Source: a virus
Strand: one strand, 5' to 3'
IMG/VR virus record: IMGVR_UViG_3300032286_001377
Location: 51,552 to 115,551 of that record
Length of the DNA: 64,000 nucleotides
Shown here: one piece after another, positions 4,625 through 57,279 of the stretch
Layout: each line of letters begins with the position of its first letter
Numbering within the stretch: position 1 is the first letter of the stretch
Notes under the pieces: generated by a model
Database searches by the model: none
Seen by the model: only the letters and a program-made list of their open reading frames with translations
Told to the model about the DNA's origin: nothing
Made by a program: the position numbers and the translations under genes

Positions 4625-4625
4625 T

Positions 4626-37000: not shown

Positions 37001-40000
37001 TCGATCCACCAATTTGAGCTATATCACCCTTAATGAATGGGTCATACAAACTTTTTGCACCGGGCGCTGAACTCAAACCCATAGCCTGAGTAATAGCTAG
37101 ACGGGCACTTTGAATGTTAGAGTCCCCCTGCTTATAGCTCATATAAGAACTAAGATTGAAAAGAGTACCCAACCCAGCAGCTTGTGCTTCAGTTCTCTGA
37201 GCTGGACTAATCGCACCAGACTTAACAAGATCATCTACTGCTGTCTGAATCTTTATAAAGATTTCATCTTTATTAACACTACCAGAAGTTAACTGATTTG
37301 ATTGAGCAATATATCTAAAAATTTCATTTTTTAATTCATCATATTTAGTAGAAATAGTAGGAGATTTTTGAGCCATCATCGAAACAGCACTTAGGTCAGC
37401 CTCATCCATTAGTCTACTCATTCTGGAAGCTGAAGAAAGAATTGGTGTTGGATCTTGCCCTGACGATCTCAATTGCCTAGCTAACTGAGACTGAGTTTTT
37501 TCAATTTGCCTACCAAAATCAATTAAATCCTGATGACTCTGTATCTCAGAAACGCCTTTGCCTCTAAAAGTAAATAAATCTGGAGTCTTATCTTCAAGCT
37601 CTTTCATCAACTTAACTGGCATCCCGGCTTCAGATAGTGTTCTATCTCTTAATGACGAATACGCCCTTATTAAATCAGCCTCCTGGAATCCAGAGATTAT
37701 ATTATTAGATCTATCTACAAGAGAAATAGATCCATCCGGCATCGTGGTCAACCGTCCCGAAGTTTTAGCAGCACCTCTCGCTCCTGGTATTGCAATTTCT
37801 TCTCCAGCCAACAATCTTGACATAACTTCAGGATTATATGGATCATAATTTCTTCTTCTAAATCGAGATAACTGACCAAAAATAGAATTAGGCTGATCTG
37901 AACTAACCGCCATTCTATCTCTAATCTTCAACATCCTATCTTGACCAGAAGGACTTAGTATTCTATTCAAAAAATTAGAATTTAATTCCTCCCTAATCTG
38001 CTCAGGATTCGCACCCTGCAGATCAGAGGCATAACGTGTATGCCTGGTCAGTAAATCCATAGCATTAGTCGGCAATGCGCGATAAGAACCCTTAAGAGTT
38101 TCACTAACTAACTCTCCAGTATTTTCATCAGTCCTAAAAGCAGTAACAGCGCCTTTCAATCCTTTAGTTCTATTGAACATATAGAAGTCAGGACGCACTG
38201 CCCCTTCTTCCAAAAATGGTTGCACAGATCTGGAAGAAATATATTGAACAGATGGTCTTCTATACATCTCTTTAAAAGAATTGTATCCAACAAGATCTGT
38301 TGGATTAAAACCTAAAATAGGAATCTTAAACTCTGATGCTAAAAAGTTACCAATACTAGACGCCGTTGACCTAAGAGCAGTGAAGTCAAGTATTTCACCA
38401 CGACCGCTCTTATAGACGCCATCTAATCTACTTAAGCCTATTGACTTTGAAACAGGGTCCTGAATAGCCATTCTTCCAGCAAGCTGTCGAATGATGGCCT
38501 GGTCTTCATCGGGAATATGTTTGAACATTCCACGATCTTGCGCCTCGTCAATTGTAACTTGCTGTAATCCAAAAAGATTTTGACCACCACTAAAAACACC
38601 TGATGTCATCTTCTTATTCTTAATCAAGAATGCACGCAAATCAGTAAAATTACTAGGATCTATACCACGATTTCTAAGCTGATCAAGAACCATATCATTG
38701 GTAACCATTTGACCATTTTGATGCGTCAGTTTAATACCTAATGTTTCAGCAGTTTTTCTCTGCATGAACTCTAGCTTTGCGTCGGTTGGCTCGCCAATGA
38801 AATCTTGATAAAGAGCTTTCTTTGGCTTTAAAATCCCGCCTGCAGCTTGATGCAGATCTTCTCTTTGGAACTTATTCCAAGAATTTGCAATACGATTATT
38901 TAAACGCTTTTGAAACTCCGTACTAGTGAAAGCATTTCTTGATCTTTCTATTGCATCAGCTAAAGCATCAGCGTTAAAGTTTGGATTCTCTACAAGATTT
39001 TTACTACCTTTTATTTGACTATATCTTTTGATTATCTGACCAAAAAAATCTTCAGATTCAGACTTAGCTGTCGAACCCTGCTCTAATATCTGAGCTTTTC
39101 CAATAGAAACAATCTTAGTCATATCGCTAGTTGACCCAGGTATAGATACCTCTAAATGCGCAATAAATCGTTCCGCGTCACGCTTATTGATACCTTTATT
39201 AATTAACTGTTTTTCAAGTAAATCTTTATAGGCGTCCGTTTGCATGCCATTATTAAATTGGCTCTTAGCAAATGTTTCAGAACCAGGGCCTCCACCACCA
39301 AGTATTCTAATATCTTTAGCTAAATTAGACAATCTTGATGAGTGCTGAGACTGAATCTTTTTAATAGATTCCGCTAAAGCATTCTGCCCATTATTGCCAG
39401 TAAAAATTCTAGAATTATCAATAACCTTCTTAAATGCCATAGGACTTTGCATGGCATCATAAGCCTCACCAAGGCCCTTAAATTCCTTTACGCCGACTGA
39501 TATAGCAGAACTGGTACCCCTGAAGGCGGGAATGAGGTCTATTGCTGAACCGTATTTTTGCTGTCCATCAGAATATCCTGTAAAAAGATTTTTAAATTGA
39601 GTCTTCCTCAACTCCGCTTTAGAGGAGTTGGTCAACAAAGCCTTCTCTTGAGCCTTATCCCACCCCGCCCTCAGGTTATGCAAGGTTTGAACAAAACCTG
39701 ATTCTTGCGTTCTAAATTCAGTAGCGGCAGCATTGAAAGCGCCAGATGTTTGAGCACCTTTTTTCAAAAGTTTATTTGTCAGAGAAGCAAAATCGTGACC
39801 AACTTCAGCGAGAACTTCAGATACGTTAACAAAATTCTGATGGAGCTTTTGCCTAGCCGGTGTTAAACTTCTAATATCAGACTCTGCATACTTGAGTGTA
39901 TGAATAGAACTTTTTAAAGTAGTTCCCGCCGCGCCTGCTGCCTCAAATGGAAGAATCATTGTAGTCATGGACTTTACTGATTCAGTAGTAAAGTCAGCAA

Positions 40001-40673
40001 CAACATCTACAGGATTATACCATTTTGTTTTAGGCTTTCCCTCTTCACGCTTACCAAAAACGGGATCTACAATAGCTTTTTGGCCAATATAAAAAGCCGG
40101 TAACTCATACGGCATTCTTCTTCCAGCTCTAACTAACCTTTGCTGAAGTTCATCCCTATATTGCCAAACTGCTGTTGGTGAACCAAATCCACTTTTATTG
40201 CCAGCTAATCGACGTTCTTCTTTGGTTAAAAATCCAAAACCAAATCTTTCACTAGATACACCATCATATCCTGTTGTTAATTTATCCGTACCATAAACTA
40301 ACTTGCTATATGGATTGCTCTCACCATCAACATATCTACTTACGCCTTCAAGTTCATCAAGGTGTCTGCGAATTTGCTTTCCAGTTTGCACTGCTCTAGT
40401 AACAACATCTGGAGCAGTCTTGTTCGCAACTTTTTCTTCTGCAAACTTGACTAACTTAAGACCGCCCTCTTTTACCACCTTAGAGAGTACTGCTGCGACA
40501 GCCATTGTTGCCGCCGATGTAGCAACAAAGCGCATAAGGGGATGGTCGTTTAGAGCTCTTGATATAAAACCAGAATTAGGTGCATCGCCCTCATCTTCGC
40601 CCTCCTGTATAGGGACATCGCGAGACATGACGCCATTACCTAAATTATATAAAGGTCCAGGATCTCTTATCAA
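34032..40673 (-). CDS. Giant virion protein, candidate tape measure (2213 aa)
   Basis: First large gene after the two tail-assembly-chaperone candidates, the classical tape-measure position. I use the TTG start at 40673 (AGGAT upstream, 13-nt gap to the previous gene); an in-frame ATG at residue 16 after AGGTAAT is an alternative. Residues 48-65 (MRFVATSAATMAVAAVLS) form one hydrophobic helix and residues about 1944-1975 (LLASAALATTGAFFG, then KLFGTVVGGAAGALSS) a second one. A glycine-rich stretch of YGGGGYGGG type lies near 1551-1590. The rest is long helical segments broken by Pro-rich, possibly beta, regions. Tape measures set tail length and often carry membrane-active segments released on infection. 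The function is inferred from position, size and helices; no catalytic domain was recognised. Confidence 0.78.
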   Translation of the reverse strand: MIRDPGPLYNLGNGVMSRDVPIQEGEDEGDAPNSGFISRALNDHPLMRFVATSAATMAVAAVLSKVVKEGGLKLVKFAEEKVANKTAPDVVTRAVQTGKQIRRHLDELEGVSRYVDGESNPYSKLVYGTDKLTTGYDGVSSERFGFGFLTKEERRLAGNKSGFGSPTAVWQYRDELQQRLVRAGRRMPYELPAFYIGQKAIVDPVFGKREEGKPKTKWYNPVDVVADFTTESVKSMTTMILPFEAAGAAGTTLKSSIHTLKYAESDIRSLTPARQKLHQNFVNVSEVLAEVGHDFASLTNKLLKKGAQTSGAFNAAATEFRTQESGFVQTLHNLRAGWDKAQEKALLTNSSKAELRKTQFKNLFTGYSDGQQKYGSAIDLIPAFRGTSSAISVGVKEFKGLGEAYDAMQSPMAFKKVIDNSRIFTGNNGQNALAESIKKIQSQHSSRLSNLAKDIRILGGGGPGSETFAKSQFNNGMQTDAYKDLLEKQLINKGINKRDAERFIAHLEVSIPGSTSDMTKIVSIGKAQILEQGSTAKSESEDFFGQIIKRYSQIKGSKNLVENPNFNADALADAIERSRNAFTSTEFQKRLNNRIANSWNKFQREDLHQAAGGILKPKKALYQDFIGEPTDAKLEFMQRKTAETLGIKLTHQNGQMVTNDMVLDQLRNRGIDPSNFTDLRAFLIKNKKMTSGVFSGGQNLFGLQQVTIDEAQDRGMFKHIPDEDQAIIRQLAGRMAIQDPVSKSIGLSRLDGVYKSGRGEILDFTALRSTASSIGNFLASEFKIPILGFNPTDLVGYNSFKEMYRRPSVQYISSRSVQPFLEEGAVRPDFYMFNRTKGLKGAVTAFRTDENTGELVSETLKGSYRALPTNAMDLLTRHTRYASDLQGANPEQIREELNSNFLNRILSPSGQDRMLKIRDRMAVSSDQPNSIFGQLSRFRRRNYDPYNPEVMSRLLAGEEIAIPGARGAAKTSGRLTTMPDGSISLVDRSNNIISGFQEADLIRAYSSLRDRTLSEAGMPVKLMKELEDKTPDLFTFRGKGVSEIQSHQDLIDFGRQIEKTQSQLARQLRSSGQDPTPILSSASRMSRLMDEADLSAVSMMAQKSPTISTKYDELKNEIFRYIAQSNQLTSGSVNKDEIFIKIQTAVDDLVKSGAISPAQRTEAQAAGLGTLFNLSSYMSYKQGDSNIQSARLAITQAMGLSSAPGAKSLYDPFIKGDIAQIGGSIRKRFSPLLTPAKRAFGTAPYRPDSMTTDPLGSGQYTTLVPTFGTVFGRNPQGAIKSALGLTTYSDPESFSLASVPASQGVERLNRYFGTLGMQLDVSKFNGPLDLFARGMAGKRVLPLYAAGTAAMTIDRTMGGMVNEKDENGERVYSPLVLGTAAKVGVEAHAAAAGLIPGGMSYQEKREQLVEGEVPIRQGRFWPLGNTPFKGGKIMYYRPSWYRKLQGGAMFTSDTYGSPAEKFLFDNDISPLRPLDPYRFERKHYEDRPYPVTGEYFSGPFGPLVPIANATLGRILKPQKIMHGEELTAGLASYAPAGQFGAYDATAYTSSTQVGGYGGGGGYGGGGYGGGFGFGGGSSGFGGGGYQGQYNSDMASRAGSTFMARGMTRNKISDINSGYSQLAYGPPKVSKVMNPRIVPSGTPLMPGRSEFQATEAGYRAQEMLGIYGFAFGSARESLGFGKSDLDPQRAVLQSASKAYGSSRAFWDLNLGGLGDVPIGGSEGIGNIEFSEIVRRFIPKDRTGVDYLNPIQNRMGKENPWLPGAEYYMNFRTGDPFTKVQEGELRLPGVAYERFNKLHPDETGRYGLIDQLNILGDVAPYSQQFKRVNSLINKKALTPEEKVEVATIRQQAEDTTVRHDFSEYKYKYSSPEEAAMHPIKFGMGRIGEMLAHSDNFILTKAIGKRTALEDWERSNVYGTTFPQWQNPVESYIKPMLQESTQRNPLLASAALATTGAFFGRTPRAKLFGTVVGGAAGALSSTGGKVQEFISGERYIPKKRKEELALEEYSDILSYVKNTRLANMASASGDMAAATQFRSAARRTMYGANIDNPNVENLSFALPKRKREHFKAMMDAPVQERGKILSTAGRLERRMYEAAWGMDVEKLPDLDEYFTSHELPSEDWEGWNPNTNLDQVKIKTGQHMGLDMSQMGYYPQQIKEANLANASYPDFFGTSSRGDIRARLERLMAGTGVTGTITPVSTPFGSQQISVSAGVR

Positions 40674-40686
40674 TTTAAAATCCTAT

Positions 40687-41316
40687 CTATTTCATTCCCC
40701 ATAGTTTTTGAGCGATTGGGTCCTCATATGCTGCTTCGCCTTCTTTCTTAGAAAGGTTATGCCGAGCTGCTCGTACCTTCTCTTTTTCTTCTTCTTCTTC
40801 AGGATCAATTAACTGCAAAGTAAGATCAGTGGACTGAATGCCATTAATTCCCTGTTTAATTTCTATAATCTTTTCTGCAAGAGCGACTTTTTCAGCCAGT
40901 TCACTAAAAGTCATATTCTCTAAATCCTCTGGAGAATAAGAAGCAATAGCTGCCAACACAAAAGCCTTCATAATATTTTTAACTTCAGATGCTTCAGCTC
41001 TTTTTAAGTCTAATGTTTGCTTAGCAATCTTTGCTGAAGTTATTCCAGATAAATCTAAAATATCTTGAGCAAGCGAGGAAACATTGCCGGGTGGAATTTT
41101 ATATATATCAAAATCTTCTGGATAGATAATTCCAAAAGATAAAATTAAATCTTCTAAATCGGCAGAAGAGGAATCATCTAGATCTTGATATGACAATACC
41201 TGACTATATTCTTTAAAGGTCAACTCTCTAAAAATAAGAGTAATATTCTTTATATCTACAGAATATATATTTCCATACTTTTTCTTAAAATTAAAAATTA
41301 ATTCAGAATCAATCAT
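40687..41316 (-). CDS. Tail assembly chaperone candidate 2
   Basis: A 209-aa protein immediately before the giant tape-measure candidate. Its core (ITLIFRELTFKEYSQVLSYQ, then LILSFGIIYPEDF, then AQDILDLSGI) parallels that of the upstream 176-aa protein (ITFDKHVVWRVLSRLEYKQI, LCILYPKL, QEVLEASGF), so the two look like paralogues. The C-terminus is strongly charged with an EEEEEKEK run and ends in AQKLWGMK. Many phages make two chaperone forms here by ribosomal frameshifting; in this phage they appear as separate genes with a 2-nt gap. The predicted role is to coat the tape measure while the tail tube polymerises. Family assignment rests on position and the internal parallel, not on a known motif. 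Confidence 0.68.
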   Translation of the reverse strand: MIDSELIFNFKKKYGNIYSVDIKNITLIFRELTFKEYSQVLSYQDLDDSSSADLEDLILSFGIIYPEDFDIYKIPPGNVSSLAQDILDLSGITSAKIAKQTLDLKRAEASEVKNIMKAFVLAAIASYSPEDLENMTFSELAEKVALAEKIIEIKQGINGIQSTDLTLQLIDPEEEEEKEKVRAARHNLSKKEGEAAYEDPIAQKLWGMK

Positions 41317-41318
41317 TT

Positions 41319-41849
41319 CTACAATTGTCTTACCTCAAGAGCTACGAAACCTGAAGCCTCTAAAACCTCTTGCGAAATCAAAGAAGGTAGGCCAGCCATG
41401 GCTCCCGATAAAGATCCACCATCAAGCTTGGGGTAAAGAATGCACAACTCCGCAATAGCTTCTTCGTTCCACATGTTTGCTTCAGCAGAACTCAACTGTC
41501 CACCCTGAATAAGCTGTTCCATCTTCTTAACAATCTGCTTATATTCCAATCTTGACAAGACTCTCCATACCACATGCTTATCAAATGTGATTGAAGTAAC
41601 ATATACGTCCTCATACTGCTGCTTCCATGCCTTAATCATTCCAGCCGTAGGACCACCATCCCATATTAATTCATCATCATCTAGATCTTCAACAGACTGT
41701 GCTTGATCGTCATCAAAATCACTGTCATCGCCAACCTGCACCTCTACAGTGCCATCATCTGACATTGTAAAACTAGCAATGTCGTCATACTCTAACTTAT
41801 CTGCAGCCTCAGGAGTATCTACTACTGAAACTTTTCTTTGATTAGCCAT
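41319..41849 (-). CDS. Tail assembly chaperone candidate 1
   Basis: A 176-aa protein with GGAG eight bases before ATG 41849. The N-terminal 70 residues are very acidic and probably disordered (DDSDFDDDQAQSVEDLDDDE). The folded part carries VVWRVLSRLEYKQIVKKMEQ and AELCILYPKLDGG, followed by LISQEVLEASGF, matching segment by segment the next gene's product. It sits between the tube genes and the giant tape-measure candidate, as tail chaperones do. A short AT-rich gap (41850-41905) precedes it, with a TATAAT-like box, so it may head its own transcript. Function is inferred from context and paralogy. Confidence 0.68.
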   Translation of the reverse strand: MANQRKVSVVDTPEAADKLEYDDIASFTMSDDGTVEVQVGDDSDFDDDQAQSVEDLDDDELIWDGGPTAGMIKAWKQQYEDVYVTSITFDKHVVWRVLSRLEYKQIVKKMEQLIQGGQLSSAEANMWNEEAIAELCILYPKLDGGSLSGAMAGLPSLISQEVLEASGFVALEVRQL

Positions 41850-41905
41850 TATTATCTCCTAAAATATTTTTTTATTATACATGATATCAAAAACACATAA
41901 TTTAA

Positions 41906-42823
41906 TCAACTCTTAAACCCAGTAACAGTAGAGCCAGTGCTTGTATTGGTCGGCGCATCACTATCTGAATTATTTCTTGCTTGCAAACTCTTAACAAAAC
42001 CAAGATCTGCTTGACTATAATAGTAGTCTCTAGCGATGAATTGATAACTCTCAGCTAATGGCTGTCCACCAGGGGTGTAAGCTGTAGCCATACTCATCAA
42101 CTGCACTTGTTGCAATATTATTTTCATTGGACTAACAATATTATCAACCCTAACACTGCGCTCGTTTACGTCAGAATAGATCATTCTATCCAAATCGTCT
42201 GTTATCACATAAGACTCTGATTTAAGTGAATTAAAAGGAGTAAGTGCAGTTTCTTCAACTCCATACAAGATCACAAAATTAAAAGGCGGATGCGCACTAA
42301 ATATATTTTTTTCTCCACCAGATCCTGCTGGATCTAAAGTAATTCTATCTAATTGGTTATATGCCCAGTATTTTTGTATATTCTTTTCATCATCAGTAGA
42401 GCCGTATTGTGACCCCAACTTAGAAACTATTGACTGATCACTACTTCTATCAGATGGATTAGTAGCCCTAGCTTTTGCTGCTCTTTCTAAAAAGTCTGTC
42501 ATTCTTCTGGGATATCTACTAAAAATAGTGAATTCTCCAGAAATTAATCTTGTACCATACATGATGGCATCATAATTGTACGACCAAAATCCATAAAGTG
42601 GTTGCTTCTCTTGTTTAATCGTATAAGCAAACGAAGCTAAATCTAATTCATCTTCTGGATTAAAAAGTCCATCTATAAACACCTTAACATCTTCACCACT
42701 AAAATAATAGTCATAATAATTACTAAAACGAGTATCGTTATCAGATGCTGTGCCAGCCCATTTAAGATCTATGTCTTTATCTAATGGATTGAAAATAGGG
42801 GGAGTAGGTTTTTTATTAGCCAT
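41906..42823 (-). CDS. Divergent tail-tube-like virion protein (third paralogue)
   Basis: This 305-aa protein shares the skeleton of the two tube-like proteins upstream: YYFSGEDVKVFIDG, FAYTIKQEKQPLYGF, then GTRLISGEFTIFSR. These correspond to their FSGxD, (S)YSxxREKxPxxxxG and GxRxIAGSLIFTVF motifs. It is more diverged and longer, with a C-terminal half containing HPPFNFVILYG, the counterpart of the PPFDIxxxFxNEYG box. It follows the second paralogue with a 1-nt gap and no clear ribosome site, so translation is probably coupled. It could be a baseplate-proximal tube initiator or a tube-baseplate adaptor. Homology is visible in the sequence; the specific role is inferred. Confidence 0.72.
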   Translation of the reverse strand: MANKKPTPPIFNPLDKDIDLKWAGTASDNDTRFSNYYDYYFSGEDVKVFIDGLFNPEDELDLASFAYTIKQEKQPLYGFWSYNYDAIMYGTRLISGEFTIFSRYPRRMTDFLERAAKARATNPSDRSSDQSIVSKLGSQYGSTDDEKNIQKYWAYNQLDRITLDPAGSGGEKNIFSAHPPFNFVILYGVEETALTPFNSLKSESYVITDDLDRMIYSDVNERSVRVDNIVSPMKIILQQVQLMSMATAYTPGGQPLAESYQFIARDYYYSQADLGFVKSLQARNNSDSDAPTNTSTGSTVTGFKS

Positions 42824-42824
42824 G

Positions 42825-43571
42825 TTACGGTTTTACAATCTCATCCACAGTATTGAACTGATAAAGCTTAGCAAGATTTGTCATAACCTTATCTCCAAAT
42901 ACATTCTGCATGTTTTTAGATATTTGTATATTTCTATCTTTTAACGCAGGATCCAAAGTAGAAGAATCAGCGTCTTTGCCTGGATCCATTTTCACCATCG
43001 GCTGTATTCCTCTTGCCATATACGTATATGTTTGTTCTGTTATTAAGTCATCAATAGATATTGTTTGACCTTCATCGACAATTGTTACTCCAAAAATTTT
43101 CATCTTTGAACCTTGACCATATTCATTGAAAAAGCTAACAACGATATCAAAAGGAGGCAACATGTCGGCAAGCGGTGCAAAGAAGCCATTTTTCTTTGCT
43201 AGGTAATCTTGATATTGAGATATCCTATAGAATACATATTCATTAAAAACAGTAAAAATTAAACTGCCAGCAATAGTTCTTCCACCCTTAATAAAACCAC
43301 GAGGATTCACATGGCCTAAAGTTCGAACAGGAGAATTCTCTCTGTGAATAGAATAAGACAAAGTTTGAAGTTCGCCCAATACCAGTGTCTCTCCAGTACC
43401 AGTCATCTTTCCATCTTGTCCAAAATTTGGAATAATAATTGTAGCTACCGCATCAACACCAGAAAATGAAATATTCTTTAAAGCGTAAGCTGGATTATAG
43501 TTACCCTTTTCCTCAACTTGTTCAGGGGGAGGAATTGTTTGAGTAGGTTTACCAATGAAAATCTTTGCCAT
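42825..43571 (-). CDS. Tail-tube-like virion protein (second paralogue)
   Basis: A 248-aa protein with AGGTGA upstream of ATG 43571. It aligns well by eye with the 224-aa tube protein before it: FSGVDAVATI, LSYSIHRENSPVRTLGHVNP, GGRTIAGSLIFTVF, PPFDIVVSFFNEYGQ, ISIDDLITEQTYTYMARGIQ. It has longer N- and C-terminal tails. A terminator hairpin lies between the two genes, so this copy is probably made at a lower level, by readthrough. That fits a minor component such as a tube cap, initiator or tail-tip ring rather than the main tube. Paralogy is certain; the division of labour is inferred. Confidence 0.8.
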   Translation of the reverse strand: MAKIFIGKPTQTIPPPEQVEEKGNYNPAYALKNISFSGVDAVATIIIPNFGQDGKMTGTGETLVLGELQTLSYSIHRENSPVRTLGHVNPRGFIKGGRTIAGSLIFTVFNEYVFYRISQYQDYLAKKNGFFAPLADMLPPFDIVVSFFNEYGQGSKMKIFGVTIVDEGQTISIDDLITEQTYTYMARGIQPMVKMDPGKDADSSTLDPALKDRNIQISKNMQNVFGDKVMTNLAKLYQFNTVDEIVKP

Positions 43572-43582
43572 ATTTCACCTAT

Positions 43583-43625
43583 AAAAAATAATACGCACGA
43601 GAGCATTTGCCCCCGTGCGTATTAT
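43583..43625 (-). terminator. Intrinsic terminator of the main tail tube gene
   Basis: ATAATACGCACG (43588-43599) and CGTGCGTATTAT (43614-43625) make a perfect 12-bp stem, followed on the minus strand by TTTTTT. It lies 20 nt past the stop of the tube gene and just before the second tube-like gene, which must then be expressed by readthrough. Confidence 0.88.
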
Positions 43626-43644
43626 AGTAACGATTAAGCTAGTA

Positions 43645-44319
43645 TTATGGTCTAATTATCTCAGGATTTAGACCAGCTGGCTGAATATTGGTAAGATTGG
43701 CTCCAGCCTGAACATCAAGCAAGGAGTCAGTATTGATGGTATACATTGGGCCAAGTTCTCTGGCTACATATGTCATTGTCTCTTCGATAACAATGTCATC
43801 CATCGAAGCGCCAGAGCCTTCATTCAAAAGCTCTACGCCATAGATGGAACGTACTGCAGACTGACCATATTCGTTCACAAAAGTTATTGTGATATCGAAT
43901 GGTGGAATCTGGTCAGCGTAGTACGGAACCTTCTTAGAAACACTCACGCCATCAGTATTTACATCGGCTATACCGCGAGACTTGAACGTGGTATCGCCAG
44001 GTAGGGCGTTATGTGATCTGGTGTAGAACCATTGCTGAGTATCGCCACTCTGGTGATTCACTTCCAACATCTTATAAAGTGCTGGACGATCAAATACGGT
44101 GAAGATGAGAGATCCAGCTATACCACGCTTACCTCTTGAGAAGGAACGAGGATTAGGTGAACCCATTGTGTAGATAGGGGCCTTTTCTCTTGTTACAGAG
44201 AAAGTAATTCCAGAAAGCGCACCAATCGATACACCACCAAAGGTAGCTACGATATCGGCTCCTGAAAATGTAGTATAAGTATTAAGATACTTATTTACTG
44301 GTGAATAGTCATCTGCCAT
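43645..44319 (-). CDS. Major tail tube protein candidate
   Basis: A 224-aa protein with a strong GGAGGG site before ATG 44319. It directly follows the tail sheath gene and is followed by an intrinsic terminator, the arrangement expected for the abundant main tube. Motifs shared with its two downstream paralogues are FSGADIVATFGGVSIG, SVTREKAPIYTMGSPNPRSF, GKRGIAGSLIFTVF and PPFDITITFVNEYGQ, and the C-terminus has the box DDIVIEETMTYVARELGP. This motif set is familiar from virion structural proteins of large myoviruses. The tube lines the channel for DNA and is surrounded by the sheath. The assignment is by family pattern and gene order. Confidence 0.82.
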   Translation of the reverse strand: MADDYSPVNKYLNTYTTFSGADIVATFGGVSIGALSGITFSVTREKAPIYTMGSPNPRSFSRGKRGIAGSLIFTVFDRPALYKMLEVNHQSGDTQQWFYTRSHNALPGDTTFKSRGIADVNTDGVSVSKKVPYYADQIPPFDITITFVNEYGQSAVRSIYGVELLNEGSGASMDDIVIEETMTYVARELGPMYTINTDSLLDVQAGANLTNIQPAGLNPEIIRP

Positions 44320-44347: not shown

Positions 44348-45619
44348 TTACAATGTAATGGCGACCTGGACTTCGATTGTCTTAAGTTCGAAGGCAGGAG
44401 TTAAAACGAGGTCAATTATTGCCTTGTTTTGTGATGGCACATATGTGACATTAAAGTCACTGCCAAGCAGGGCTCCTAATAATTGCATTCCTCTCAGACC
44501 AGAAGTAATTGCAGTCTCCATTGAGTTACGAATCTCAATCGTTGAAGGCTGACCAATGTACTTCTGGCACTGCTGACGGACTACTAAAGTAGCCTCATCA
44601 ACAATTCGCTTAGTAGAAAGTCTAGTATAGTCAGAGGTAGACTGACCGAAAGTAAGACCTTCGCCAAAGACTGGAATCTTGTTAAAGTTAACGATGACAG
44701 TATTGACGCCCTTATTTGAAAGATCTGTCTGCTGGGTTCTAGTTGGAGCATAGCGGATCTGATCAACGTTATAGAGCGGCTTGTTAACAATTGAAGTATA
44801 GGAAGGAAGTCTGCTCATAGTGGCGGCCAAGAAGGCAGCACCATTTGTATATCCAAAACTATTAGAAGGAGTTGCGCTATTACCATTAACATAGTTAACA
44901 GGCATAACTTCACCAGCAACAATGGTGACATAAGGACCAACTGTAGCCCACACAGAGTTGCCATCTCTTACTGGAAGGTTAGGCAAAGCCAGATGAGTAG
45001 AGACCTGAGTAGGAGTCATTCTATCGGAAACATTAGCAACGTTGATATATGGCTTAATTCCCATAACTGCTATGCAAGGGTTGGTGCTCTCTGCAATAGC
45101 CTTTGTTGCAACAGCTGTCTTGTATGCCCAGTTATTAAGCGCGACAGAAGTATTGTCTGCATGGAAACCTAATTCTAGGTTATCGTTAGCAGGTGTAGCT
45201 GGACTTTCCCACTCTACCGGACTGCCACCACGACCCCATGGAATAATGATGTCAGGAATAGCGGCTTCAGCTGCTGCGAAAGCGGCGTTGAAGATATCTC
45301 CACCAGCGCTGACGCTAGTGAGTCCACCGGTTAAGTGAGCGAAAACAGTGTCACTAGGAAGCGGCACCAAGAACACTCTCTCCGCACCAGCGATTACCAG
45401 CTCAAGAAAAGCTCTATGAAGATCTGAACTAGCGCCAAAAGCGCTAATTACATCAGCCTCATTAGTAGCTCTTACAACGTCGAGATCTGCGATCCCTCCG
45501 GTATTATTAGCAGTAGACCGCTTAGCGATAGCCACGATACGAGGACCAACAGGAGCATCCTGTCTAGATACCGTATAAAAACGATCTTTAATTATTGTTG
45601 TTACTCCAGGTATAGCCAT
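44348..45619 (-). CDS. Tail sheath protein
   Basis: A 423-aa protein with a full GGAGG Shine-Dalgarno about 12 nt before ATG 45619. It begins MAIPGVTTIIKDRF and continues with repeated strand-loop units typical of the contractile sheath (GPRIVAIAKRST, then DVVRATNEADVISAFGASSD, then AGAERVFLVPLPS). The C-terminal third (DEATLVVRQQCQKYIGQPS, then TAITSGLRGMQLLGALLG) is the conserved domain that locks onto the tube. The sheath surrounds the tube and contracts on infection. It is shorter than T4 gp18 and nearer to the minimal sheaths. A second, much larger sheath-like protein is encoded just upstream. Confidence in the fold is high. Confidence 0.9.
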   Translation of the reverse strand: MAIPGVTTIIKDRFYTVSRQDAPVGPRIVAIAKRSTANNTGGIADLDVVRATNEADVISAFGASSDLHRAFLELVIAGAERVFLVPLPSDTVFAHLTGGLTSVSAGGDIFNAAFAAAEAAIPDIIIPWGRGGSPVEWESPATPANDNLELGFHADNTSVALNNWAYKTAVATKAIAESTNPCIAVMGIKPYINVANVSDRMTPTQVSTHLALPNLPVRDGNSVWATVGPYVTIVAGEVMPVNYVNGNSATPSNSFGYTNGAAFLAATMSRLPSYTSIVNKPLYNVDQIRYAPTRTQQTDLSNKGVNTVIVNFNKIPVFGEGLTFGQSTSDYTRLSTKRIVDEATLVVRQQCQKYIGQPSTIEIRNSMETAITSGLRGMQLLGALLGSDFNVTYVPSQNKAIIDLVLTPAFELKTIEVQVAITL

Positions 45620-45738: not shown

Positions 45739-46590
45739 TCAACTGTTTGGTGTTGCTGTCTGATTCAAGTCAACTATGTCAATAGTAATGCCTTCATAAT
45801 TGGGAGTAGCTAAAGAAGTAAGTAATTCTTTTTCATAAGCCATCCAAGTTCTTGCATCAACAGCGATCTGATTTATTCTTTCATTTCTAATTGCAAATGT
45901 CTTTTCAGTAGTCAACATATAAGTAATGACTCTTTTATGGACATCTTTATTTTCTCTACTGACCTCAGAATCAGAGAGTCTTCTTGAATAGACTAACTCT
46001 GAAGCCCCAGCGGCTTTGAAAATTGGGGTATATTCAATCATGAAATCCTCAAAAGCTTCAGCGATCTGATCACAGAGCACAGCGGCATCAAGATCATCTC
46101 TAGTTGTTGTTGTGTCACTATCCTGAAACACTCCAACTTTAGACATAATAGAAAAAGATACTATATTTTGAAACTTTTGACCATATATAGTAACAGAATT
46201 AGATAGTATGTTTTGTCTCATTCTTGGCTTTGGCTCAATAGTATGAGCCTTTCTAAGTTCAAGAGAATATCCAATAATTACAGGAAATTCATCTAATCCA
46301 CTAAAACGAGGAGATTGAGTAATCTGATCCAAGCCTAAATTAGAAGTATTTGTATCAGGATATGTATAAATCGTTTCTTTATTCGCACCTAGGGGGAAAA
46401 TTGGAATGGCAGGAAAACTCTCTTCCCACAGCTTTTTTACTAAGGCAATGAACTCTAGATAGGTAAGATTGCCAGAATAAATTTCTTCAACGCCATTATG
46501 ATCCAGCCTTCTATAACCTGGAGATTGAAGCGGTTCACCAAATCTTGTGTTATTACTTAAAATTGGAAAATTTCTATTTATAAAAGACAT
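45739..46590 (-). CDS. Candidate tail terminator / tail completion protein
   Basis: A 283-aa protein with GGAGT before ATG 46590, lying between the two sheath genes. It has a mixed alpha/beta core (LTYLEFIALVKKLWEESFP, VTIYGQKFQNIVSFSIMSKV, DQIAEAFEDFMIEYTPIF) and ends in two copies of the recurrent ATPN motif (SLATPNYEGI and NQTATPNS). I do not recognise a family with certainty. Proteins at this place, between head-closure and tube genes, are often tail terminators or tail-completion proteins that cap the tube and sheath; the pattern of a long helix flanked by strands is compatible. This remains a guess from order. Confidence 0.6.
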   Translation of the reverse strand: MSFINRNFPILSNNTRFGEPLQSPGYRRLDHNGVEEIYSGNLTYLEFIALVKKLWEESFPAIPIFPLGANKETIYTYPDTNTSNLGLDQITQSPRFSGLDEFPVIIGYSLELRKAHTIEPKPRMRQNILSNSVTIYGQKFQNIVSFSIMSKVGVFQDSDTTTTRDDLDAAVLCDQIAEAFEDFMIEYTPIFKAAGASELVYSRRLSDSEVSRENKDVHKRVITYMLTTEKTFAIRNERINQIAVDARTWMAYEKELLTSLATPNYEGITIDIVDLNQTATPNS

Positions 46591-46592
46591 TG

Positions 46593-49500
46593 TTAAACTC
46601 CAGGTCCAGTAGATATTGCAAAATTAATTTGTCTTAATCCAAGTGCTGCTAAAAGTTCAATATGAAAAATTAGTTTCCCTGATGTTTCTTGACTAACCTC
46701 AACATTAAAAGCAAAATCTAAAATTATATTATTTTGTCTTAAAGAATTTAGATAATCCCTAACCCTAGATACAACTTTATCATATCCAAATTTCCCAATT
46801 GCCTCATAAGAGAATCCTCTGACCTCACTAACAACTCTTGCAACTAATCTCATTTGAGATGCTTTTGATAAGGTTGATAAACTGCTAGCCATCGTGTTTT
46901 CATTGCTAACATAGACTTCAAAAGGAACGGATCTTCTAGTCTTCTTTCCTCTATAAACAGTATTGATTCCCAATGAATCAAGTCTGTTCATTTCTATCTG
47001 AGCAAGATCGGCACCAAAGACTGCCGTAGCTCCTTTTACTCTAGTTCTAATCAATCCCATATTCATTGGAGCAGCTGATAGCATCCCAGCAAAAGCTGCA
47101 GCCATCGAAGATGGATATGAACGCTTTAATTGCGCATGCTGATATATAACTTCTCCATATATTGGAATTACAAACCTTCCAATATCAGAAGTAATATTTC
47201 CATCAAGAGGACTATATTGTGTGAACTTATTAACAAAAAGTGGATTAGAAGCTAACTCTTCAACATCAGAAGAAGATATTCCATTAGACCTAGAACCAAT
47301 AACTCCAAGCTGCACGTAGCCAGTATCATTATGGAAACTACTAAGATAATTAGCTAGCTGTGTAATAAAGTCAACCCCACCCGTAGCTAAAATTGAGGCT
47401 TCTAGTGGAACAACATAATCGACAAAATCTAATTCACCAATCACTGAATACGTCGCAGCCAAACGTTGATAGTATTTTTGATAGAAAGTATAACTAGCAG
47501 GTGTCGCAGCTGCTAAGTCAAATAAAATAGTAGAAGAAATCCTATCAGCTGGTTTATAAACATACTCAGACATAGGCGCAACTGCACAAATAATAATATC
47601 TCTTGCACCAGCCTCATACGCATCAAATACACCACGTAGAAGAGGACTATCTAAATCGGCTCCAAGCAAATCGATTGCACTTTGAACAGACCTAATCCTA
47701 ACCGGATCATTAAGCCCAATCCCATCAGCGTGCCCCAGTAAAAGCACCGTGCTAGTATTAGACTGATTTAACTCTTGATAAAGAGGTTTGTAATTAATTA
47801 CGGCAGACTTGTTCGACCCAGCAATGCTGGGAGACAAGGTGGCTACCGAGCCTTTAACCTGAAATTGTGAGACAATATTAATATCAGTTAGATCGGTAGT
47901 TGTTTGTGCAATAATTGAATAGTTTGCTTCAAAAAAAGTTGTTGGAACTGTATAATTTAAAGTAAATTCGTATTTATTTGTTCTCTCAATAAGAGATGTG
48001 GCCCTAGATGAAGGAGCTATTGCCGCAGAACCCCTTAGAGTCCAAGTATTATTGTATTGATCAACATAAGAAGTCTTACCAAAACTATATTGATACGGAG
48101 CAAAATCTGCAACAGTTGGTCCATCAATTCCATTTCTAATAATCGCCCTATACATTTTGCCATTCATAAAATATTGAGTAGCGTTGTTGAAGCCACCTAT
48201 TTCCACTTGTGCTGTTCCAGGAAATAGACTAAGCGAATATGTGCCAATGGCGTCAGTTAAAAGAGTCCATGATACAGGCTCATCGGTCTGATCCTGCGCA
48301 TAATAAAACTTTACCCTATACCCACCAGTTGAGTCCCTGGATGCAAGTGTGGCCTTAATCCAATATGTTCTACCATCAATGAAAGTGTTAGCCATAGTTC
48401 CAGCTGGAATTGCTGCTGAGAATAGATTCTGTCCATCATAAGATAAAAATAGTCTTATAACACTTGACTCCATAGCTAATAAATAAGATCTTAAAGGAGT
48501 AGCATTATAATACTTTCCTATAAAAGTTTGATTAGTAGTTGGATTTGTCCAATCTGTTAGAGAAGCTCTAACTACTAATTCAAGATCTCTATTTCTTTCA
48601 ATTCGTGCGACTGTGCCAAGTGTATTTACTGTAAGGTTGTTTCCAGAATTTTCAATAAAAGAAGTTGCAAATTGTATCTGCCTAGTAAAATTGACATCAA
48701 GAACTTTAGTGCCACTACTAAATGCGTTTCGTGCAATTACCCGATAAAATCTTCCTGAAGACGCATATCCGTTAGCTTGTTCCGAATAGGCGCCAATGAC
48801 AAAAGGCGTATCACTATTGTATAGTGTGCCAGATGTTCCAGGAATAGCGCCGCCAACATTGGTCCATGTTGTTGGTTCTACTTCTTGATCTGCTGCATAG
48901 TCGAAAAACCACTGTCCAGAAGATGAATTCCTTCGATACCTGAACCAATAAGTCTTCCCATTCACAAATGGAGATACTGTTGCTCCCCAGTTTGGCGTTA
49001 AAATTGTACTATTATCAATAGTATAACTGGCAAACATTTTTCCAGCTGTGTCGATACCTAAAAGGTATGATCTACTAGGACCGGTATTTGTGTATTTTCC
49101 AACAAAACACTGATTAGAAGCATTAACGTATTTATCTAATGTAGCCCTTATAGTTACCTCAAAATCAGATAAATCCAAATAGCTTAGACTTGGAGCGGTA
49201 GCATTATCGGTAACGGACCATCCACCAGCAACTGTGACGCCTGTCCGAGTACCATATGTTGTCCCATCAACAATTTTAGCTATTGAACCGGAAACTGTAA
49301 CAGTTTTTCCTGTCGACTCCGAGAAAGATGATGATCCGATAGTCTTTGAGGTAAAGTCAATATCAACTATCTCTGCACCATCGATGCCGTTTCTTACTAT
49401 TGCTCTATAAAATTTTCCTGAACTAAAGTTTGAAGAACCAGAAAAAGCTGAACCAACTTCAACTGGTGCAGTTGCATTATAAATTGATGTTATAAAACCT

Positions 49501-50186
49501 AGAGCAGCAGGTTGAGCACCAAGATCATTCCATGTGGTAGGTTCTGTCTCACTGTCTGGTGCATAATAAAATTTTACCTGACATCCTCCAGAATTATTAT
49601 TTATATCTAAAGTAACCTTTAACCAATAGGCAACTCCGTCACCAAGAGGTATGAGTGGAGTACATGATCTACTTTGTGCTGATGCAACAGATCCAGTTGG
49701 CCACCACTCAAAAATGTGAATGCCATTAGTTTGTACACTCCACCTGAATTTCCTATTAGGATCAGATTGAGTCGCAGCAATTAGGCAATTGCTAATAGAA
49801 GAAGGAGTCCAGTCATCTAAGGCTACCCTACAAACAAGCTCTATATCACCAGCAACATTTAACGCAGTAGAATGTGGGACTGACACATAATTTCCAGTCA
49901 CTCCAGGAAGACTCAAGAATTTAATACCTTCAGCACCATTGATATCAAGAAAATTTGAATCTGGCGCAGAAATATAACTACCAGAAATACCAGGTAAAAC
50001 TGCGTATGAATCCTGCTTAATAAATGAAAATGGTCCATCAACAATAGGACCATTCCCGTTATCGCCTCTTACTACAGAAAAATAAATATCCGAAGCCTCT
50101 GTGCCGCCAGTTGGATCGTAAACTTGACTATCTGATGTAAATATAAACTTAAATTTTGCTGTTTGACCTTTATTTAAAATTAACAT
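46593..50186 (-). CDS. Sheath-like protein with inserted LamG (lectin-like) cassette
   Basis: I use ATG 50186 (1197 aa), one base after the TGA of the preceding gene; the longer TTG-initiated form from 50210 is less likely. Residues 1-50 begin an Ig-like strand set (ILNKGQTAKFKF, SDIYFSVVRG). Between about residues 55 and 700 sit LamG/concanavalin A-like units: a truncated stub (VLPGISGSYISAPDS), then three fuller copies around 85-285, 330-500 and 525-700, each ending YRAIVRNGIDG or similar. The Ig-like sequence then resumes (YEFTLNYTVPTTFFEANYSI). Residues about 775-1197 are sheath-like, including VRIRSVQSAIDLLGADLDS and LRQNNIILDFAFNVEV near the end. It may form a decorated sheath, sheath terminator or neck ring able to bind glycans. 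The domain order is seen; the role is inferred. Confidence 0.82.
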   Translation of the reverse strand: MLILNKGQTAKFKFIFTSDSQVYDPTGGTEASDIYFSVVRGDNGNGPIVDGPFSFIKQDSYAVLPGISGSYISAPDSNFLDINGAEGIKFLSLPGVTGNYVSVPHSTALNVAGDIELVCRVALDDWTPSSISNCLIAATQSDPNRKFRWSVQTNGIHIFEWWPTGSVASAQSRSCTPLIPLGDGVAYWLKVTLDINNNSGGCQVKFYYAPDSETEPTTWNDLGAQPAALGFITSIYNATAPVEVGSAFSGSSNFSSGKFYRAIVRNGIDGAEIVDIDFTSKTIGSSSFSESTGKTVTVSGSIAKIVDGTTYGTRTGVTVAGGWSVTDNATAPSLSYLDLSDFEVTIRATLDKYVNASNQCFVGKYTNTGPSRSYLLGIDTAGKMFASYTIDNSTILTPNWGATVSPFVNGKTYWFRYRRNSSSGQWFFDYAADQEVEPTTWTNVGGAIPGTSGTLYNSDTPFVIGAYSEQANGYASSGRFYRVIARNAFSSGTKVLDVNFTRQIQFATSFIENSGNNLTVNTLGTVARIERNRDLELVVRASLTDWTNPTTNQTFIGKYYNATPLRSYLLAMESSVIRLFLSYDGQNLFSAAIPAGTMANTFIDGRTYWIKATLASRDSTGGYRVKFYYAQDQTDEPVSWTLLTDAIGTYSLSLFPGTAQVEIGGFNNATQYFMNGKMYRAIIRNGIDGPTVADFAPYQYSFGKTSYVDQYNNTWTLRGSAAIAPSSRATSLIERTNKYEFTLNYTVPTTFFEANYSIIAQTTTDLTDINIVSQFQVKGSVATLSPSIAGSNKSAVINYKPLYQELNQSNTSTVLLLGHADGIGLNDPVRIRSVQSAIDLLGADLDSPLLRGVFDAYEAGARDIIICAVAPMSEYVYKPADRISSTILFDLAAATPASYTFYQKYYQRLAATYSVIGELDFVDYVVPLEASILATGGVDFITQLANYLSSFHNDTGYVQLGVIGSRSNGISSSDVEELASNPLFVNKFTQYSPLDGNITSDIGRFVIPIYGEVIYQHAQLKRSYPSSMAAAFAGMLSAAPMNMGLIRTRVKGATAVFGADLAQIEMNRLDSLGINTVYRGKKTRRSVPFEVYVSNENTMASSLSTLSKASQMRLVARVVSEVRGFSYEAIGKFGYDKVVSRVRDYLNSLRQNNIILDFAFNVEVSQETSGKLIFHIELLAALGLRQINFAISTGPGV

Positions 50187-50187
50187 A

Positions 50188-50559
50188 TCACTTCTCTCTT
50201 GATGCGCCAACAGTCCAAAAAACTATTTTTCCCAACTTACCTCTAACCGCAGAAACAGCATTAATTCTATACATTGTATAATTTTTATGATTTTTCATAG
50301 AATAATTTTCATATATCCTATCCCCTTCTTTAGGGTAAATCTCTGCTTCAAAATAATAAACAGCATCATATTTAGTAATAAGACCATCTGCTTGCTCTTT
50401 TGTAGAAAGTGTATTAGCTATACCAGATTGGCCAACCTGTCTTGTGGTAACTCTTTCCAAAGAATTTGAATGATTTCCATTTGCTAACACCCTCTGAATA
50501 TGAACATCGTGACCCCAATCACGCATAATTTTCCTAAAAGATCTTTTCGCATCAATCAT
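50188..50559 (-). CDS. Head closure / head-tail joining candidate
   Basis: A 123-aa protein overlapping the end of the upstream connector gene by 8 nt. It starts MIDAKRSFRKIMRDWGHDV and continues with a small beta-barrel-like pattern (YYFEAEIYPKEGDRIYEN, MYRINAVSAVRGKLGKIVFW), as in SPP1 gp16-type head-closure proteins, where the loop enters the DNA channel. It precedes the sheath-like gene. The order connector, closure, tail genes is standard. The family is not certain; I infer it from size, strand pattern and position. Confidence 0.65.
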   Translation of the reverse strand: MIDAKRSFRKIMRDWGHDVHIQRVLANGNHSNSLERVTTRQVGQSGIANTLSTKEQADGLITKYDAVYYFEAEIYPKEGDRIYENYSMKNHKNYTMYRINAVSAVRGKLGKIVFWTVGASREK

Positions 50560-51454
50560 ACTTTCTCAGACCTCTTCTCGGCATCGGGTCATCTTTTACT
50601 GTTGACTTTCTACCAGGACCATAAATGTCTCTATCGGAAAGATAAACAATTCTTCCAGTTTCAGGATCAACGACTTTTCCAGAAAAGTTTCCACTTGGAA
50701 GACCTTTTGGTTGCATTGAAGTTGGTCCAACTTTCTTTGAAAGCATTTCTTTTCTCATGGCCGCAGCAATCTGACACCAAGTCGTGGCATTATCTCTTGA
50801 TACAGAATTTCTAGGTATTGACTTATTAGTGACACTAAAGTCTCCAAGATTTAATGACATTTCATCATCTCCACCAAATCCATATGTGCGACTCAACTCA
50901 CATGCAGTGGCAGATTTAATGTATTCAAGAACATTAAAAGAAAGATTTGATCCATCTTCATCATCTAATAAGCTATAGATATCTTTTACTTCTAAAGAGT
51001 AATTATACACTATTTCCGCTATCTCAAGCGGAGATGCATCGGGGAAATATGCTAATAAGGACTCTGGATCAATATAAAGTGGTGATATATCCGCAGCAAA
51101 AACTATTGTTTCATCGCTACCTAAAAGTACAGTAGGATGATACTCAGTTTGAGTAGAAGAAACGTAAAGCTTCTGCTCAATGAGAATTAATTTTGCCGTT
51201 GGACCTTCGTAATAAGTGCCAGTAAATTTTATTGAGTATGTATCTGGAACTGTTGGGGTAAAAATGTAATAATAAACAGAAGAGGTTACAGATATTATCT
51301 GATTTTGATCAATAGTTAAAGATGTCCCGTCAGATTTTTTGATCTCTAAACTTATAGCATTAATCGCAATATCTACGTCATTTCCATTGGAATCAATATC
51401 TTTAAATTTTACTGTTAATTTAACAGAATCATTTACAACTACATTTTCCGACAT
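50552..51454 (-). CDS. Head-tail connector/adaptor candidate with N-terminal Ig-like domain
   Basis: A 300-aa protein with AGGGG before ATG 51454. Residues 1-105 form an Ig-like domain (VKLTVKFKDIDSNGNDVDI, YYYIFTPTVPDTYSIKFTG) related in pattern to the split Ig-like domain of the sheath-like protein. Residues about 130-235 are helical (LLAYFPDASPLEIAEIVYNY, VLEYIKSATACELSRTYG), like connector proteins that form a ring below the portal. The C-terminal 70 residues are basic and Pro/Gly-rich (GRIVYLSDRDIYGPGR) and probably extended. The Ig-like fusion would put an exposed domain at the neck. The connector role is inferred from position and the helical part. Confidence 0.65.
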   Translation of the reverse strand: MSENVVVNDSVKLTVKFKDIDSNGNDVDIAINAISLEIKKSDGTSLTIDQNQIISVTSSVYYYIFTPTVPDTYSIKFTGTYYEGPTAKLILIEQKLYVSSTQTEYHPTVLLGSDETIVFAADISPLYIDPESLLAYFPDASPLEIAEIVYNYSLEVKDIYSLLDDEDGSNLSFNVLEYIKSATACELSRTYGFGGDDEMSLNLGDFSVTNKSIPRNSVSRDNATTWCQIAAAMRKEMLSKKVGPTSMQPKGLPSGNFSGKVVDPETGRIVYLSDRDIYGPGRKSTVKDDPMPRRGLRKYD

Positions 51455-52923: not shown

Positions 52924-53997
52924 TCAGAGGCCACCAGCGGTTGCTTCGTTTGTAAGCTGAACTTCGTAGTTACGAACCAGTCTAACATTCTTAGCCACAG
53001 TAATACCTTCACCATCACCTAGCATGACGATGTCATACCGCTCCTTCATCTTCAGCTGACGGATATCACGGCTAGGATCATCAAACTGATCTGTGCTCAT
53101 GTCATCCTTCACAAGAAGACTGCCAACCTCATTGCGGTCGATAAGGAATACGTCAGACTTAGCGGCTAGTTCAAAACCTGTTCCACTCTTAGCAGTAAAG
53201 CTTACGAATGGAGAAACTAGAACGTTAAGACCCATAGGTGCAGTAGCATTTAGTACTCCATCCTTTGAAGTTGGACGGAGACCCCAGCTAACATTAGCTG
53301 AAGCGCCTTCTGCATGGAAGATTGCGTCCTTAAGGAAGAGTGACCACATTAGTGGGTGAAGTATGAAATCGGTGGGGACATGGTTTTCAGCCATTAGTAC
53401 AGCTGCCATATCCACGATGTCATCCCATGTGATGGTCTTGTTAAATGCACCGGTTAGATCACGGCCGGTAGTGTCATCATAGCTGCCACTGTCATTGTCA
53501 TAAACAATGCTAGCAGCATCCTTGAAGCGTGAAAGAGCGATCTGCTCCTTAAGACGAGCCATTGCCCGCCCAGCAGCACGTACGTGCATGCCAACAATGT
53601 CCCAAAGGGAGTCAGCAATTACTTCTTCAGTGAAAGCTAACTTTACACCTTTCTTAGAGACCTTGCCTTCAATTTGCTTTGCAAAGGCGAGTGCCTGTTC
53701 TGGATATTCTTGTCCTTCGGGAATCTCTGCTGCTTGAATTGCATTGACTGCTGGGAACTCCAATGAGCGCCCCTTGCCGAGGCGAACCACTGAGAGAAGA
53801 GGAGTCACCAGTAATTGTGGCTCAGCCGCTTCTCTTAGAGTGCGTGAAATAACCTTGGGGAACAGCGCTGCTGCATCAGGTGATGCAAAAGCTTCTTTAA
53901 TTGTTACCCGGTTATCTACGTCGATGTACCCGTCCTCAGTCAGTGCAGTCTCCCAAGCAGGGAGACCCGAGAGGAGCTCTTGGATTGTTTTACTCAT
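52924..53997 (-). CDS. Major capsid protein (HK97-fold candidate)
   Basis: A 357-aa protein with a strong CAGGAGG site before ATG 53997. The pattern of an N-terminal helical arm, a central VTPLLSVVRLGKGRSLEFP strand region, a SFVSFTAKS-like beta element and a C-terminal DIRQLKMKERYDIVMLGDG domain with RNYEVQL near the end fits HK97-type capsid proteins. It follows the protease-scaffold and head-decoration genes, and a strong intrinsic terminator sits directly downstream, as expected for the most abundant protein. Base composition is visibly richer in G and C than in most neighbours, as is common for highly expressed capsid genes. Cleavage by the upstream protease near the N-terminus is possible but not shown. 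Confidence 0.88.
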   Translation of the reverse strand: MSKTIQELLSGLPAWETALTEDGYIDVDNRVTIKEAFASPDAAALFPKVISRTLREAAEPQLLVTPLLSVVRLGKGRSLEFPAVNAIQAAEIPEGQEYPEQALAFAKQIEGKVSKKGVKLAFTEEVIADSLWDIVGMHVRAAGRAMARLKEQIALSRFKDAASIVYDNDSGSYDDTTGRDLTGAFNKTITWDDIVDMAAVLMAENHVPTDFILHPLMWSLFLKDAIFHAEGASANVSWGLRPTSKDGVLNATAPMGLNVLVSPFVSFTAKSGTGFELAAKSDVFLIDRNEVGSLLVKDDMSTDQFDDPSRDIRQLKMKERYDIVMLGDGEGITVAKNVRLVRNYEVQLTNEATAGGL

Positions 53998-56499: not shown

Positions 56500-57279
56500 T
56501 TAAGCCTCAAGTAATTGAGGATTATAATCTTTATGGCGAGGATCTCCCTCACTCAAAAATCTTGTATACATATTTTGTGACATGATATGAGGAGCATAAA
56601 TGTATGAAGCAGAAAAAAGCTTAAACCCCTGCTTCAAGCACTCGTGCGACCAACCGACATCTTCACCTTGTTCGTGAACAATATAGTCAACATTTTGATA
56701 CACTTTTTTAGACATCATCTTAGCGGCCATAATCACATCACTTTGGAAATAGCTGCCAATTGGATAGCGCTGTTCGCGATAAGCTTTGTTGCTCCCATCC
56801 TTACGCCAAGACATGACACTTGGATACATGTCATAGATAGGTGTCATAAACATAAGTGGACTAACCGCATCAGCGCCAGACTTAATATGTGCAATTAAAA
56901 GTTCAAGAGTATTTGGATTTTCCAAAAGAATATCAGAATCTAAACTAAAATAAAAATCTGGTTCAACTTCTCTTGCAGTTTGAAGAAGGGAATTTCGCAA
57001 TGAAACCATATTTTGATATTTTGACAAAGTCCACTGCCGAGTATTTTCCTCATGTTGAAAATGAGGGATATCACTTCTTATCTTAATATTAAAATAAGGA
57101 ATTTCTTTACTTATATTTTTCCATACTTTTAGAATCTCAATAGTTGAAGTATCATCGGGAGAAACTTCAAAAACAAAACCTATATCAGATAGATCAATAG
57201 ATTGAGCTAGAATATCTCTAATCCAATGATGAATAATCCATTCACGCTTATAAAGCGGACAACCTAATAATATCTTCAT
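56500..57279 (-). CDS. GT-A-fold glycosyltransferase
   Basis: A 259-aa protein whose ATG overlaps the stop of the previous gene (ATGA). The N-terminal MKILLGCPLYKREWIIHHWI is the first strand and nucleotide-sugar loop, SLDSDILLENP near residues 111-121 is the metal-binding DxD motif, and EQGEDVGWSHECLKQGF near 204-220 matches the acidic catalytic-base/acceptor region of GT2-like enzymes. Such enzymes transfer a sugar from a nucleotide donor to a protein, lipid or glycan. It has no signal peptide or membrane segment, so it acts in the cytoplasm. It sits between portal and protease genes in the head operon, an uncommon location. Possible targets are virion proteins, the host surface or phage DNA. 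The enzyme class is strong; the acceptor is unknown. Confidence 0.82.
   Translation of the reverse strand: MKILLGCPLYKREWIIHHWIRDILAQSIDLSDIGFVFEVSPDDTSTIEILKVWKNISKEIPYFNIKIRSDIPHFQHEENTRQWTLSKYQNMVSLRNSLLQTAREVEPDFYFSLDSDILLENPNTLELLIAHIKSGADAVSPLMFMTPIYDMYPSVMSWRKDGSNKAYREQRYPIGSYFQSDVIMAAKMMSKKVYQNVDYIVHEQGEDVGWSHECLKQGFKLFSASYIYAPHIMSQNMYTRFLSEGDPRHKDYNPQLLEA

Follow-up and report, generated by a model that had tools for sequence, protein, structure and literature searches.

The window (the 64-kb stretch of DNA analysed here, part of a 115,551-base virus record) encodes two tail-sheath paralogues, one of which, sheath-1, carries a cassette of three LamG-like units nested in a loop of its Ig-like domain. 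We propose, with moderate confidence in the explanation as a whole, that this second sheath paralogue forms a head-proximal, low-copy ring on the tail and displays LamG-like host-binding domains. The sheath-1 gene starts with an ATG at 50186, stays open throughout to a stop at 46593 and directly adjoins the neighbouring genes on both sides. Its product divides into the following parts, described with reference to the insert-free relative L001, to a second cassette-bearing contig, L197, and to a 2092-aa protein of the same genome.

46593..50186, minus strand: sheath-1, 1197 aa, with a split Ig-like domain, a LamG-like cassette and a predicted tail-sheath core.
50013..50186, minus strand: Ig-like domain, part 1 (residues 1-58), aligning with L001 residues 1-58; strands at 9-18, 35-40 and 48-54 in the L001 model.
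47991..50012, minus strand: inserted cassette (residues 59-732), shared with L197 and lacking in L001 and some 100 further relatives.
49227..49913, minus strand: LamG-like unit A (residues 92-320); units B and C and the 2092-aa protein are homologous to it.
48594..49226, minus strand: LamG-like unit B (residues 321-531), homologous to units A and C.
47991..48599, minus strand: LamG-like unit C (residues 530-732), homologous to units A and B.
47856..47990, minus strand: Ig-like domain, part 2 (residues ~733-777), aligning with L001 residues 68-112.
47763..47855, minus strand: predicted flexible linker (residues ~778-808), with pLDDT <50 at the equivalent L001 residues 117-144.
46596..47762, minus strand: predicted tail-sheath core (residues ~809-1197), with Z ~30 against solved sheaths.

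Relatives of sheath-1 were collected by scanning viral contigs with its C-terminal 453 residues, which yielded 26, and by wider scans that gave 108 distinct proteins, mostly of 525-560 aa. The closest insert-free relative (L001:5448-7040, 531 aa) is 66% identical in the C-terminal sheath part, and its residues 1-112 form a single contiguous Ig-like domain. In a pairwise alignment, window residues 1-58 correspond to L001 residues 1-58 and window residues 733-1197 to L001 residues 68-531. A profile built from 35 insert-free relatives (residue numbering in this search is ORF-based, +12) matches the window protein twice, at profile positions 1-61 and 64-531, with the cassette between the two matches and two profile positions missing at the junction. 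This comparison with insert-free homologues bears out the sequence-only reading that an Ig-like domain is split by an insert, while both boundaries required correction, the cut from about residue 50 to about residue 58 (GPFSFIKQ) and the resumption from about residue 700 to about residue 733 (IERTNKYEF). In an AlphaFold2 model of L001 (mean pLDDT 82), the insertion site is the loop between strands 48-54 and 66-71. The inserted cassette comprises ~670 residues, or ~70 kDa per subunit. Across the 108 distinct relatives and a separate cassette scan, it was found in sheath-1 of only two contigs, the window record and L197, which led us to reject the idea that it is common to all relatives. No match to the cassette was detected elsewhere in 28 of the 29 whole records of relatives searched, many of them fragments, and the cassette junctions carry no direct repeats beyond two short, imperfect ones.

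Structure models clearly assign the C-terminal part of sheath-1 to the tail-sheath fold. Residues 801-1184 of the window model match 6j0n_V with a Z score of 30.1 and an rmsd of 3.3 over 327 residues, many sheaths score Z >25, and the core of the insert-free L001 protein likewise reaches Z ~30 and an rmsd of ~3 over >300 residues against solved sheaths. Foldseek also links the core to the phage 812 sheath (1.9e-14). At the sequence level, relatives of sheath-1 match the sheath families phrog_279 (3.7e-8) and phrog_23 (2.7e-5), together with Phage_sheath_1 at 8.5e-5, which is below the curated cut-off. The 1197-aa protein itself has no sheath-family match in Pfam or PHROGs; the sole strong match in these collections is phrog_5313 (function unknown; 1.2e-39), over the middle part. 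Sequence searches with the core gave no match in the PDB, nor did tblastn in any phage record. The earlier description of the C-terminal half as sheath-like is thus supported by the models of both the window protein and L001; the contrary case, a C-terminal part without a sheath fold, was examined by the same structure comparison and not found. The full-length model of the 1197-aa protein is good for the sheath core only, and the geometry of the cassette cannot be derived from it.

The cassette consists of three full units of ~200 aa each, with 31-35% mutual identity, and a short additional copy of the unit start lies in front of them. We consider it highly probable that these units are LamG-like. 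With the cassette region of the model, where pLDDT is mostly <80, Foldseek retrieved a concanavalin A-like lectin in BFVD (1.7e-18) and the laminin LG structure 5ik4 (7.1e-6), and a cassette profile matched neurexin LamG domains in the PDB weakly (best E 0.14). The cassette units have no match above the cut-off of Pfam Laminin_G_3 (PF13385), and the label is therefore kept at "LamG-like". Other units of the 2092-aa protein and of a 2224-aa adhesin do pass this cut-off, at 39.8 and 34.2 bits; comparing them with the cassette units did not establish homology. The proposed LamG-type cassette within the Ig-like domain is hence recovered as three repeat units, labelled through remote evidence and not through a direct Pfam match.

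Within the same genome, the nearest units are found in the 2092-aa protein outside the window, with 36-47% identity and DNA patches that are 75-85% identical. This protein (record positions 37536-43247; locus labels L028-L034 and L205, contig G000) contains many cassette-type units, those nearest to the cassette at record positions 38724-43247, and is closer to the cassette than the 2224-aa adhesin. The cassette had been described as being of the same type as the LamG units of this adhesin, which is true at a remote level only (27% identity). A recent copy from the adhesin was rejected, given that no DNA-level match to it was detected. Copying of the cassette between genes within the genome is possible on sequence grounds, as an event that was not recent.

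Sheath-1 belongs to a compact tail module, which comprises the following further genes.

50188..50559, minus strand: head-tail joining-like gene directly upstream of sheath-1, with weak matches (phrog_38102, E 5e-4; PF25138, E 0.089).
45739..46590, minus strand: virion structural protein (phrog_20284, 6e-12) between the sheath genes, in the position and presumptive role of a tail terminator; a similar-sized gene lies between the sheaths in relatives.
44348..45619, minus strand: sheath-2, the compact second sheath, 423 aa (phrog_16991 tail sheath, 9e-25; hhalign to sheath-1, E 3e-4).
43645..44319, minus strand: tail-tube-like protein (phrog_9206, 7e-51; PHROG label 'major head protein'), in the tube-gene position as in Bacillus phage KLEB27-3.
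42825..43571, minus strand: second tail-tube-like protein (phrog_9206, 1e-43).

The gene order is thus head-tail joining-like gene, sheath-1, gene in terminator position, sheath-2 and tube-like genes. Together with a Baseplate_J gene at 12542-13711 of the window, the two sheath genes show that the phage has a contractile tail. The earlier suggestion of a second sheath besides the one at 44348-45619 is strengthened by 181 loci that contain both sheath genes, 620-1040 bases apart. In IMG/VR loci with one sheath gene, the contig ends within ~1.1 kb of that gene, and two sheath paralogues are present wherever the contig reaches far enough (108 distinct relatives), remote cultured phages excepted. 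Sheath-1 and sheath-2 give no useful BLASTP match and are related at the profile level only. The 'major head protein' label on the tandem genes at 42825-44319 is probably wrong, since the capsid gene lies at 52924-53997 and the tube genes of KLEB27-3 occupy the same position. Kinship of the sheath-1 Ig-like domain with the Ig-like start of the gene at 50552-51454 was considered and not supported, and no prophage relatives were confirmed in bacterial genomes.

Several other genes in the window are predicted to encode structural or surface-related functions. The product of 60395-62494, a gene to the head side of the capsid gene, ends in a Peptidase_S74 intramolecular chaperone, also matches Phage_Tail_Tip and is probably a tail spike or fibre. 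The gene at 62612-63931 combines a collagen-like start with a weak match to the carbohydrate-binding family CBM_4_9, both below cut-off, and the gene at 56500-57279, which adjoins structural genes, weakly matches the Anp1 glycosyltransferase family (E 0.0019, likewise below cut-off). A 3674-aa protein encoded at 17564-28588 strongly matches phrog_20474 (labelled endolysin; 2e-119), has a weak endonuclease match near its end and resembles a giant tape-measure protein or one of the tail-lysin type.

In the explanation that we favour, the sheath-1 core would assemble into the sheath wall, as its modelled fold suggests, and the Ig-like domain sits before the core on the flexible linker. In this domain, the loop that follows the third long strand has received the string of three LamG-like jelly rolls. 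Upon incorporation, these units would project from the tail as secondary host-binding domains, with weak multivalent binding of surface glycans as the most likely mode, and six subunits per ring would display 18 LamG-like domains. Host binding is supported by the relatives of the units in named phages, which belong to tail-fibre and minor tail proteins encoded by phages of Arthrobacter and Streptomyces. Two considerations incline us towards a low-copy, head-proximal ring: the sheath-1 gene is flanked by the head-tail joining-like gene and by the one in terminator position, and an insert of this size in each subunit would crowd a full-length sheath.

Alternatively, sheath-1 and sheath-2 could co-assemble along the whole tail, in which case LamG-like domains would stud the entire shaft. 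The conservation and adjacency of both sheath genes across the group fit such an arrangement, as does the two-component tail sheath reported for Pseudomonas phage PaBG, both proteins of which are in the structural proteome (as summarised in PMC7412058, citing Kurochkina et al. 2018). However, the PaBG paralogues are 38% identical whereas those of the window are very diverged (hhalign E 3e-4), and a ~70-kDa insert in every ring would probably be crowded; we regard co-assembly as rather doubtful. It is less probable still, and in our view unlikely, that the LamG-like domains are structural and mediate protein contacts between rings or to the collar or tail appendages, with no host binding. LamG domains also bind proteins and mediate protein contacts. 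Virion stabilisation has furthermore been proposed for the extra domains of phage sheaths (Evseev et al. 2022, PMC9230969). A structural role is, however, at odds with the occurrence of related units in fibre-like and tail proteins and with the absence of the insert from most sheath-1 relatives, which implies that it is dispensable for assembly.

The cassette scan recovered one more contig, L197, a separately assembled phage contig with the same cassette in the same gene and with the same junctions (81.5% identity over 872 residues). This rules out an assembly or frameshift artefact. Between the window and L197, pN of the cassette is 0.125 and pS 0.586, and all three units are alike in this respect; the low pN relative to pS indicates that the cassette is under purifying selection. 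Its GC3 (0.228) equals that of the sheath core (0.221). Judging from these comparisons, we take the cassette-bearing sheath-1 to be a stable allele. The lower conservation of the cassette than of its flanks (79% versus 88-91% identity between the window and L197) would suit an assembly error or a tolerated, useless insert, an explanation rendered very improbable by the shared junctions, the open frame of 1197 codons, the low pN/pS in each unit and the matching GC3.

The loop that holds the LamG-like cassette is one of three insert sites in total in the sheath-1 Ig region. In 11 representatives of another clade, the same loop carries an insert of ~60-100 aa, and these proteins have a further insert in the linker between Ig-like domain and core. 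Six representatives have the linker insert only, and in four an insert of 90 aa lies in the first Ig hairpin. Each insert group forms one well-supported clade in the core tree, with the window protein placed elsewhere, beside L001. Given these separate clades, the cassette loop received inserts on at least two independent occasions, or took in different cargo. We therefore view the sheath-1 Ig region, as far as sequence comparison reveals, as a recurrent landing platform for added domains. Small beta-rich inserts are found in the sheath-1 genes of L012, L017, L093, L101, L141, L144, L156, L171 and L188. Some small inserts weakly resemble the E1_FCCH beta-barrel (PF16190; E 0.005-0.05, 14-17 bits, short of the 29.5-bit cut-off), and some weakly match pieces of phage virion proteins (PHROG 7e-5). 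L017 and L018 both lie in the 216-kb record IMGVR_UViG_3300043446_004437, where the same sheath-1 gene is found near both ends (ranges 1-8280 and 202314-215657), pointing to a terminal repeat or to circular overlap.

Multi-domain (type 2 and type 3) phage tail sheaths also consist of a core with added Ig-like domains, for which roles in adsorption or stability have been proposed (Evseev et al. 2022, PMC9230969). Sheath-1 resembles them in combining a sheath core with an Ig-like addition, and differs in that its Ig-like domain lies at the N-terminus, joined to the core by a linker, and is interrupted by the triple LamG-like cassette; a text search of that article found no lectin domain. The possession of two sheath genes recalls PaBG, although the window paralogues are related at the profile level only and one of them carries added domains. 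Judged by the major capsid protein, the cultured phages most closely related are Bacillus phage KLEB27-3 and Moorella phage MTATph1 (41-42%), which share the order sheath, one gene, sheath, tube and have two annotated sheaths. In MTATph1 the first sheath is short and the second long, and the shared order need not mean one-to-one orthology with sheath-1 and sheath-2. The cassette search did not match the KLEB27-3 and MTATph1 records. Two BFVD matches, A7KUR1 (530 aa) and A7KUR3 (717 aa), may be two sheaths of Bacillus phage 0305phi8-36.

Extracellular contractile injection systems of the AFP and PVC types likewise use multiple sheath proteins per particle (PMC8894135), and comparison of sheath-1 with chains from AFP and PVC baseplate entries gives Z 28-30. 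As ordinary phage sheaths reach the same level (Z 29-30), this likeness implies no special kinship, and the AFP/PVC sheaths, unlike sheath-1, are ~350-390 aa long and without lectin domains. Accessory modules away from the tail tip are also known from lactococcal siphophages of the 936 group, which carry carbohydrate-binding modules on the major tail protein of the shaft and on the neck, with host binding shown for two (PMC6669499); this precedent favours the host-binding role proposed for sheath-1. The 936 modules differ in belonging to a non-contractile tail, in having a BppA-like fold and in being added C-terminally by a frameshift instead of being nested in a sheath Ig loop. A non-exhaustive literature search found no paper with both 'LamG' and 'tail sheath'. 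What is new here is the combination: one sheath of a paralogous pair has a LamG-like cassette nested in its Ig-like domain, and the loop concerned accepts other inserts as well.

Contractile sheaths commonly bear extra domains. The sheath-1 family provides a natural series, in which a single sheath paralogue occurs without an insert, with a small domain or with a triple LamG-like cassette at one loop, in addition to two other sites, and comparisons along this series can put the adhesion hypothesis to the test. It further records the two-sheath arrangement for a large group of uncultured phages, and indicates that a loop of a sheath-attached Ig-like domain tolerates ~670 residues. In the phage studied here, the cassette probably gives the tail extra sticky patches. 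More tentatively, and with less confidence than in the ring proposed for this phage, sheath-1 might serve across the group as an exchangeable display ring, in which the core anchors the protein in the tail and the Ig loops accept differing host-binding cassettes, whether small and beta-rich or triple LamG-like, so that binding could change without alteration of the tail tip or the main contractile sheath.
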